Assembly: GCF_001458315.1 (NCBI RefSeq)
Contig: NZ_CYRX01000025.1
Span: 1-64,000 of the forward strand
DNA from: Thalassobacter stenotrophicus
GTDB taxonomy: Bacteria; Pseudomonadota; Alphaproteobacteria; Rhodobacterales; Rhodobacteraceae
DNA length: 64,000 nucleotides
Direction: 5' to 3'
Shown here: in pieces, positions 59,356-61,487 of the stretch
Layout: each line of letters begins with the position of its first letter
How positions within the stretch are numbered: the first letter of the stretch is position 1
Translations under genes and position numbers: made by a program
The notes under the pieces: model-generated
Seen by the model: only the letters and a program-made list of their open reading frames with translations
What the model was told of the DNA's origin: nothing
Databases searched by the model: none

Positions 59356-60713
59356 GCGCCGAAGCTTTGTTCCCTTTGAAGCAAAATTGGGAGGTTACGA
59401 CGCTCGGTGATGTTGCTGTTCGTGGTGGCGGATCGATACAAACAGGGCCATTCGGCAGTCAACTGCACGCGTCTGATTATGTTGATCAAGGAATTCCGTC
59501 GATAATGCCTCAAAACATTACGACGGATCGAATATCGGCAGAAGGCATTGCCCGGATTACCGAGCAAGATGCAAATCGACTATCCAAGTATAGAGTTCGA
59601 AAAGGCGACATTGTTTATAGTCGACGTGGTGATGTTGAGCGTCGTGCTTTGGTTCGGCAGGAAAACGATGGGTGGCTTTGTGGCACTGGATGCTTAAAAG
59701 TAAGCTTTGGATACGGTGTCGTCGTTCCTGAATATGCAGCGTTCTACTTGAGCCATCCCGCATCCAAAGCTTGGGTCGTGCAACACGCGGTGGGCGCGAC
59801 CATGCCCAATCTAAATACTTCCATTCTTTCCGCACTACCATTCGTGTTGCCACCAATCGAGATTCAGGAAGATATCGCGGCTGCGCTAAGTACCCTCGAA
59901 GACAAGATCGAGCTGAACCGGCAGATGAATGAGACGTTGGAAGAGATGGCGCGGGCGTTGTTTCGGGATTGGTTTGTCGATTTCGGCCCCACCCGCCGCC
60001 AGATGGAGGGCGCAACCGACCCCGCCGTCATCATGGGCCAAGCCTTCCCCCCCGAAAAAGCCGCCACCCTCGCGCCGCTGTTTCCTGTAGAGTTGGGGGA
60101 TGATGGCTTGCCGGTGGGGTGGGAGGAGCGCCCGCTGAGCAGTGTTGTCGAGCAGCAAAAGCAATCAGTTAAACCAGATCAGTACCTCCACGAGGTATTC
60201 GAGCATTTTAGCTTGCCAGCCTTCGACAAGGCCAAATGGCCGACGCTCGAAAAAGGTTCAGAGATCAAGAGTAACAAAACGTCAGTTCCGCCAAACGCGC
60301 TATTGGTCTCCAAGCTCAACCCACGCATTGAGCGCGTGTGGGTCCCTCAGTCTGCAGGTCAACATCGTCTGATTTGCTCGACTGAGTTTCTGTGCTTCAA
60401 GCCGTCATCGGACCTAGGGCTGGCGACGGTAGAAGCGTTGTTCCGCTCGGACAAGATGCGCGAGAAAATGGCCTCAATGGTCACGGGAACGTCGAACAGC
60501 CATCAGCGCGTGCCGCCTAAGGTTTTGATGCAGGCGGACGTGTTACTGCCAGAAGACTGCGGAGCGGCATTTGAGGCGGTAGCTTTGCCGCTGCTGCAAA
60601 AACGCCAAGCCAACGAACAAGAAAACCAAACCCTCGCCGCCCTCCGCGACCTTCTTTTGCCCAAGCTCATGTCCGGCGAAATCCGCCTGAAAGACGCGGA
60701 GGCGCTGGTGTGA
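59352..60713 (+). CDS. hsdS: Type I restriction specificity subunit HsdS
   Basis: DNA-recognition subunit of 453 residues with two target-recognition domains, about 15-170 and 255-400. Each is followed by a coiled-coil spacer ([23 protein letters not shown], then [23 protein letters not shown]). The DNA sequence recognised cannot be predicted from sequence alone. The C-terminal [13 protein letters not shown] is typical. It is coupled to hsdM by four bases and to the next gene by GTGA. Base use in the first recognition domain is more AT-rich than in the spacer, as expected for swapped domains. Confidence 0.95.
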
Positions 60714-61405
60714 GCGTCCCCTCCCCAACGCTTCAGTTACTGCTTCGCCTTGGGTTTGTTGAGCAAGCGCCGGAGTGGGGAATGCCCTGTGTCTCCTACG
60801 AGCTGCCACATTTAACCCTGACATGTTGTGATGGGATCAATAAGCATTTTCGGGAGGTGGTTTTAGTTTCAGGCATCTACAATAACGGTCGCTCTCTGTC
60901 CGAAATCAGTTATCAAATCCCGCCTGATCTTTCAACGGACGAAAACGCGGCGGCTTGGTTGGTCTACGTCTTGAGACGAGACCTGGACGAGATTGGTCCC
61001 TTGCCTGATTGGGTCTCGCTTGGGCGCGCCAATCAGATGCTCGTCCCGATGGTCGCTGAGCAAGAGGCATATAGGAACAGGCCTGCTTGCAACATCGAGG
61101 CCGATTTTGCCCGCATTCTCCGTGCGCGTATGACCGCCCTGATTGCGGAACTTGCAAGCGATGCCTCGCTTCGGATCGAGTTTGACGGATCAATGCTGCA
61201 AGCTGTTGTGAACAAGGAAGCTGTCAAAGTTCCCGCTGAAGGCATTGCATGGACCGGACACATCGTCGTTCCTAGTGCAAATGCCTTTAAGTTTCCAAAG
61301 CGGATAGCGGCGCAGGGAACCACTTTGGACTTTTGGGACGGTTTGATGGGTCTTGGCAGACGAGGTTACCACGCGGAATGGGTGGAGGATGGTGGTCATG
61401 GCTGA
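60710..61405 (+). CDS. Unrecognised gene inside the type I restriction operon
   Basis: A 231-residue protein starting with GTG, overlapping the hsdS stop by four bases, and ending 82 bases before hsdR. I recognise no family. The sequence starts PSPTLQLLLRLGFVEQAPEWG and has a mixed alpha/beta character with no signal, membrane segment or obvious catalytic triad. Candidate motifs are weak: an acidic stretch near ISYQIPPDLSTDENAA and a C-terminal GLGRRGYHAEW. Position in the coupled operon suggests it tunes or protects the restriction enzyme, or is an unrelated defence gene. Function is open. Confidence 0.75.
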   Translation: MSVPSPTLQLLLRLGFVEQAPEWGMPCVSYELPHLTLTCCDGINKHFREVVLVSGIYNNGRSLSEISYQIPPDLSTDENAAAWLVYVLRRDLDEIGPLPDWVSLGRANQMLVPMVAEQEAYRNRPACNIEADFARILRARMTALIAELASDASLRIEFDGSMLQAVVNKEAVKVPAEGIAWTGHIVVPSANAFKFPKRIAAQGTTLDFWDGLMGLGRRGYHAEWVEDGGHG

Positions 61406-61487
61406 CCTGGTGCGCATATGCTCTCTAGATAGGTGGCAGGGGACAAGAACTAACACCGGCTTGGCCATTTTCTGAGGAGAAACCGAT

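Follow-up and report, generated by a model that had tools for sequence, protein, structure and literature searches.

Gene X of Thalassobacter stenotrophicus, a rare gene of no known family, occupies a variable cargo slot between hsdS and hsdR of a type I restriction operon, and the C-terminal half of its product is predicted to fold as a single DNA-clamp domain. The gene is real, and it stands in a slot that is filled in related operons by other cargo genes; gene, slot and company are matters of direct observation. The step from this slot to a role in defence is one of guilt by association. We infer, at about even odds (a probability near 0.5), that X is a defence cargo gene whose product would use its one clamp-like domain to act at replication forks, on clamp-binding proteins or on the restriction enzyme.

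Gene X, its operon and its homologues

The window, which is the whole stretch of DNA analysed here, comprises positions 1-64,000 of contig NZ_CYRX01000025.1 (GCF_001458315.1). Gene X is read from a GTG start codon over 231 codons, and the first four of its nucleotides are also the last four of hsdS (Table 1). The preliminary description had placed this open reading frame between hsdS and hsdR, coupled to hsdS through GTGA and inside a type I operon, and all of this is borne out by the sequence and by the Pfam and NCBIfam matches of the neighbouring genes, with hsdM and hsdS upstream and hsdR downstream.

Table 1. Coordinates of gene X, its predicted parts and the surrounding type I operon in the window
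Feature	Position	Strand	Evidence
hsdM, type I methyltransferase, 518 aa	57799..59355	+	PF02384 E 3.5e-105; HsdM_N E 1.8e-24
hsdS, specificity subunit, 453 aa	59352..60713	+	PF01420 E 2.3e-16; PADLOC Specificity_I E 2.8e-108
GTGA overlap, X start codon on hsdS stop	60710..60713	+	Sequence; GTGA in G757 too; Litoreibacter has an ATG start with the same 4-nt overlap
X, orphan gene, slot cargo, 231 aa	60710..61405	+	No known family; homologues; pattern indicating purifying selection
X N-terminal part, aa 1-122	60710..61075	+	AlphaFold2 model mf9e9f67a2649: helix, strand meander, then three helices
X C-terminal domain, aa 124-227, predicted single DNA-clamp (DnaN-like) domain	61079..61390	+	VIA-align, Foldseek
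82-nt gap, X to hsdR	61406..61487	+	Litoreibacter: DUF4268 gene (~320 codons, PADLOC PDC-S11) at the same place
hsdR, TTG start, 1046 aa	61488..64000 in the window, on to contig position 64628	+	HSDR_N and SWI2_SNF2; TIGR00348 E 1.7e-177; full length in L053

Beyond the window and downstream of hsdR, contig positions 65728-74157 (L053:10728-19157) carry phage-type matches on the opposite strand, namely tail fibre, baseplate/endolysin, 2OG-Fe(II) oxygenase and radical SAM protein (7/8 proteins scanned). In addition, the start of a viral contig of 50,196 bases in IMG/VR coincides with the first base of X, and over the 5,693 bases compared it does not differ from the contig of the window.

That X matches nothing known, as had been remarked from the sequence, held in five libraries. 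The window protein had zero matches in Pfam, NCBIfam, PADLOC and PHROGs at E-values up to 1, the clamp profiles of Pfam and NCBIfam included, and none among PDB sequences using phmmer. The homologue from Litoreibacter ascidiaceicola was likewise empty in Pfam up to E = 1, and neither this homologue nor the one from genome G757 had a PADLOC match up to E = 1e-4. Two isolated rows were read as noise: Spb1_C, the sole Pfam row for the G757 protein, at an E-value of 0.053 and under the cut-off, and AIF6, the sole row of a three-sequence X profile against PDB sequences, at an E-value of 1.7. HsdM, HsdS and HsdR domains are absent from X according to Pfam, NCBIfam and PADLOC, the same three libraries gave no match in X to PrrC-type ATPase and anticodon-nuclease domains, and no catalytic motif was recognised by eye in the alignment of the three homologues.

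The family has three members found so far, and all three lie between hsdS and hsdR and overlap the end of hsdS by 4 nt. The preliminary description had named a search for the same gene in other type I operons as a check; two further copies in such operons are now known. The Litoreibacter gene (L002:7442-8137, 231 aa) is 56-57% identical to that of the window and stands in the order hsdM-hsdS-X-DUF4268-hsdR, starting with ATG. The G757 gene (L085:9671-10375, 234 aa) is 31% identical, comes from a genome of another family in the same class, carries GTGA at the end of hsdS and also overlaps the start of hsdR by 4 nt. Homologues found widely outside restriction operons with a clear housekeeping role had been set beforehand as grounds for refutation; none is among the three, all of which sit in the slot.

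The X family is rare. Searches of five overlapping sets of genomes matched 5 of 394 genomes with one full-length match (its own), 12 of 292 at E <= 0.1 with two full-length matches (its own and G512, where the match has the same place in its contig as in the Litoreibacter locus), 4 of 385, among which its own and G757 (residues 5-215) were taken as real, 4 of 329 with one full-length match (again its own), and 1 of 11 (G757). The other matches were short, with E-values of 0.003 to 0.1, and were taken as chance; the one that was opened, in G575, looks like chance, as it fell on an open reading frame similar to ClpP in which a QLVPMVVEQ stretch resembles X. Short exact patterns found only Litoreibacter in the species-genome collection, IMG/VR yielded only DNA identical to the contig of the window, and tblastn against plasmid and phage collections gave no relative of the window or G757 gene.

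Between the window and Litoreibacter copies, identity at codon positions 1, 2 and 3 is 0.688, 0.740 and 0.442, and the NG86 estimates are dN 0.35 and dS 1.94, with dS near saturation so that the ratio is rough. These codon-position identities, together with dN so far below dS, argue that X is a maintained protein, and judged by its codons it is under purifying selection; a chance open reading frame was ruled out on the homologues, the codon-position pattern and dN/dS. Amino acid identity between the two operons is 56% for X, 88.5% for hsdM, 89.3% for hsdR and 40% for hsdS. The faster divergence of X than of hsdM and hsdR is as would be expected of exchanged or arms-race cargo, and the value for hsdS as would be expected where recognition domains have been swapped. 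To G757, identity is 31% for X, 61% for hsdM and 53% for hsdR. Within HsdS, residues 225-400 of the window protein (60024-60551), the second recognition region, are 45% identical to those of G757 (165 residues, E 1e-41), and Litoreibacter HsdS matches only 57 residues, at the start of this region.

Contents of the hsdS-hsdR interval

The interval was surveyed at places in the same family with a similar HsdR (E <= 1e-40), of which there are 33 in 32 of 388 genomes. Regions were read for 27 of the 33, leaving out G167, G347, G338, G245, G284 and G119, and for Litoreibacter, giving 28; five of these were dropped because they had no complete hsdM-S-R reading (L055, L059, L065, L068 and L073, the last being the Litoreibacter X locus). 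The 23 operons that were counted include that of the window (L053) and a second operon of the same genome (L080). All 23 have a gap of at most 32 nt between hsdM and hsdS, and the gap between hsdS and hsdR ranges from 395 to 4059 nt in 20 operons and is -1 nt in the other three. The hsdS-hsdR interval is a variable cargo slot, and X is slot cargo in that it lies between the two genes and is absent or replaced in related operons. In one of the dropped regions (L055:11593-14739), no hsdM or hsdS was recognised around an HsdR that shares 89% identity with the window protein.

A known or candidate defence type is present in 15 of the 19 filled slots other than that of the window, a count in which some types repeat, so that the events are not independent, and which comes with no baseline of random neighbouring genes. 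Direct PADLOC matches (E <= 1e-4) account for 11 of the 19, from a scan that left out some cargo genes, among them those of L078 and two of L063: FRG/PDC-S15 (L054), ThsA-like SIR2 (L056, L070, L074), PDC-S11 (L057, L076), capP/RmrA-like M78 protease (L060, L063), PDC-M23A/B with a HamB-like helicase (L062), HEC-09 NYN (L067) and SoFic (L071). The label PDC denotes candidate systems, not proven ones. The slots of L077 and L078 contain relatives (60-63%) of the PDC-S11 protein of L076, which is a DUF4268 protein, and L058 and L061 hold Abi_C according to Pfam. In L064, L066, L069 and L079, none of those defence types was recognised in the slot; The likeness of L079 to L077 (DUF3800) was judged by eye, on sequence alone. 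As for the extra defence or anti-restriction role first suggested for X, its location fits defence cargo, and nothing found points to anti-restriction specifically.

Several other contents of the slot were recorded. Small proteins of 129-143 aa (L064:10452-10841, L066:9959-10354 and L069:10055-10486), with neither a Pfam (E <= 0.01) nor a PADLOC match (E <= 1e-4), may be further unnamed cargo. DUF6615 proteins (PF20320) recur at L057:7541-8428, L076:5557-6420 and L058:10207-11040, twice directly before a DUF4268/PDC-S11 gene, which suggests a DUF6615-DUF4268 two-gene module. In the G757 operon (L085:10372-12385), the hsdS frame has an N-terminal nucleotidyltransferase domain (MNT-like, PF01909 E 1.7e-5) and is preceded by an NTase_sub_bind/HepT-like gene (PF08780 E 2.9e-17), so that by its domain matches a HEPN-MNT-like pair appears to be built into this type I operon, its MNT half being joined to HsdS in one frame.

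The DUF4268/PDC-S11 protein shares the slot with X and directly follows it in Litoreibacter, but is a different protein, which other operons carry without X and which also occurs away from type I operons. No type I genes are annotated next to its plasmid relatives from Rhizobium, Agrobacterium and Burkholderia. A relative in Deinococcus grandis has hsdM and a helicase in its surroundings, and the gene in that region which overlaps its predecessor has no relation to X. Published work describes DUF4268 as an additional domain in enzymes of the GmrSD type (PMC4619093).

Accessory genes at this position have precedents. The gene for PrrC lies between hsdS and hsdR and encodes an anticodon nuclease that also has an ABC-ATPase part, whereas X, which shares with it the trait of lying as an accessory gene inside a type I operon, has 231 aa and matches no such family. 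Published work describes PrrC as embedded in the EcoprrI type IC locus (PMC3874165, PMC12707154) and as kept latent by the restriction enzyme until a phage inhibits that enzyme (PMC3874165, PMC12707154, PMC3874168). DarTG2, a two-gene toxin-antitoxin pair of E. coli E2348/69, is likewise described as lying between hsdS and hsdR, its locus being the RRDM island (PMC12255303); it has the same position as X, and since X lacks a match in the libraries searched, no relation between the two was seen. With these precedents in print, the slot is not the novelty. The new point is the protein, encoded in a type I operon and with a predicted domain of the clamp fold, and titles and abstract openings on sliding clamps and type I restriction contained no report of a clamp-fold protein in such an operon.

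Predicted fold of the X protein

Structure prediction, another check named at the outset, gave a DnaN-like domain for residues 124-227, of which the preliminary description had no hint, and no recognised fold for residues 1-122. An AlphaFold2 model from two sequences (pLDDT 38.8) was too poor to use. With three sequences, the five models of a single run ranged in pLDDT from 83.6 to 47.7, and the best (83.6, pTM 0.51) has the residue blocks from 131 to 220 at pLDDT 84-93. In VIA-align, residues 124-227 of this model superpose on one DnaN domain with a Z of 11.0 and an rmsd of 2.9 over 99 aligned residues, where the best Z is usually 7-8 if a model has no clear match. Every one of the 50 entries in the list is DnaN, the match falling on its first or its third domain; as VIA-align re-examines the picks of Foldseek and DnaN has many PDB entries, these rows are not 50 confirmations, and the Z counts for more. 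Clamps also top both Foldseek libraries. In the PDB, the best match is DnaN at an E-value of 8.8e-3, none reaching 0.001, and the DnaN alignments span both halves of X with TM-scores of 0.2-0.3 and an rmsd of about 15-18; in the viral library, a phage beta clamp comes first at 2.3e-4, the sole match below 0.001. Residues 1-122 are barely covered by structure matches. Taken from the model, residues 124-227 are a predicted single domain of the DNA-clamp fold, and the N-terminal half would be a separate alpha/beta domain.

A profile of X compared with 20 DnaN sequences gave no signal, with a single 18-column match at a probability of 0.2%. Scored globally against each of the three domains of DnaN, the C-terminal half reaches 0.4, 5.7 and 2.2, which is within the range of 60 column shuffles (maxima 9.4, 14.7 and 11.9). 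As the DnaN domains score only 6.3 to 12.3 against each other, which is near the shuffles, this profile test has little power.

Sliding clamps have two or three clamp domains per chain, forming a six-domain ring with a DNA channel lined by basic helices, and DnaN has three per chain. The X model shares with DnaN the predicted fold of residues 124-227, but has one matched clamp domain and an N-terminal part, without a Pfam or NCBIfam clamp match. The helix at residues 130-146, which would be the one to line DNA, is only mildly basic, with a net charge of +1, +1 and +4 in the three homologues. With a single domain in evidence and no match to the sequence profiles, we do not class X among the sliding clamps.

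Readings of the role of X

In the reading that we favour, X would be a rare functional cargo gene of the hsdS-hsdR slot, probably translated together with hsdS, whose product may serve as a second-layer phage-defence protein beside the restriction enzyme, by analogy with PrrC. The clamp-like domain would engage replicating DNA, or phage or host replication proteins that normally meet the sliding clamp. A more specific version, which we put forward tentatively, is that a stand-alone clamp-fold domain links restriction with DNA replication, either by sitting on the replication clamp or by mimicking it. The effect might be that phage replication is poisoned, that a replisome is sensed when it is stalled or belongs to a phage, or that the restriction enzyme is kept at forks.

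It is somewhat doubtful, though worth weighing, that X is no independent defence gene but serves the type I enzyme as a dedicated accessory subunit or regulator, binding HsdR, the HsdM-HsdS complex or DNA, and restraining or tethering the motor with the clamp-like domain as a docking surface for DNA or protein. The confinement of all three copies to type I operons, none having been found elsewhere, would suit such a subunit, as would the overlap with hsdS in every copy and with the start of hsdR in G757, and the divergence of X along with hsdM and hsdR toward G757 fits a long joint descent. The other 22 counted operons, however, carry different genes in the slot or none, so that this type of enzyme does not need X, and a start overlapping the end of hsdS is common among unrelated slot cargo. 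A partnership with the DUF4268 protein, X being its antitoxin or partner and the window copy a leftover after loss of that partner, is very unlikely. It draws on the Litoreibacter gene order and on a resemblance between the start of DUF4268 and the first few codons around the X stop in the window. Only those codons are alike; the rest of the 82-nt gap is no better than shuffles (284 of 500 reach the score), and tblastn finds no DUF4268 remnant there up to E 10. With two of the three X loci lacking DUF4268, and with relatives of DUF4268 following other genes in the slot without X (DUF6615 in L057 and L076, DUF3800 in L077), this partnership is disfavoured.

The remaining alternative concerns the fold itself: X may be cargo of another kind, with the clamp an artefact of AlphaFold2. 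The alignment of three sequences, the pTM, the weak Foldseek E-values, the low TM-scores and the lack of sequence support all speak for this, but an artefact sits poorly with the high pLDDT of residues 131 to 220, with a Z well above that usual for models without a clear match, and with clamps coming first in both Foldseek libraries, and we regard it as unlikely.

For the search for new defence genes the hsdS-hsdR slot is a compact site, and X represents an unnamed family known so far from this slot alone. Should the clamp-like domain prove real, it would suggest a direct physical link from a type I restriction system to the replication machinery, and the three natural versions of X offer material on which such a link could be tested.
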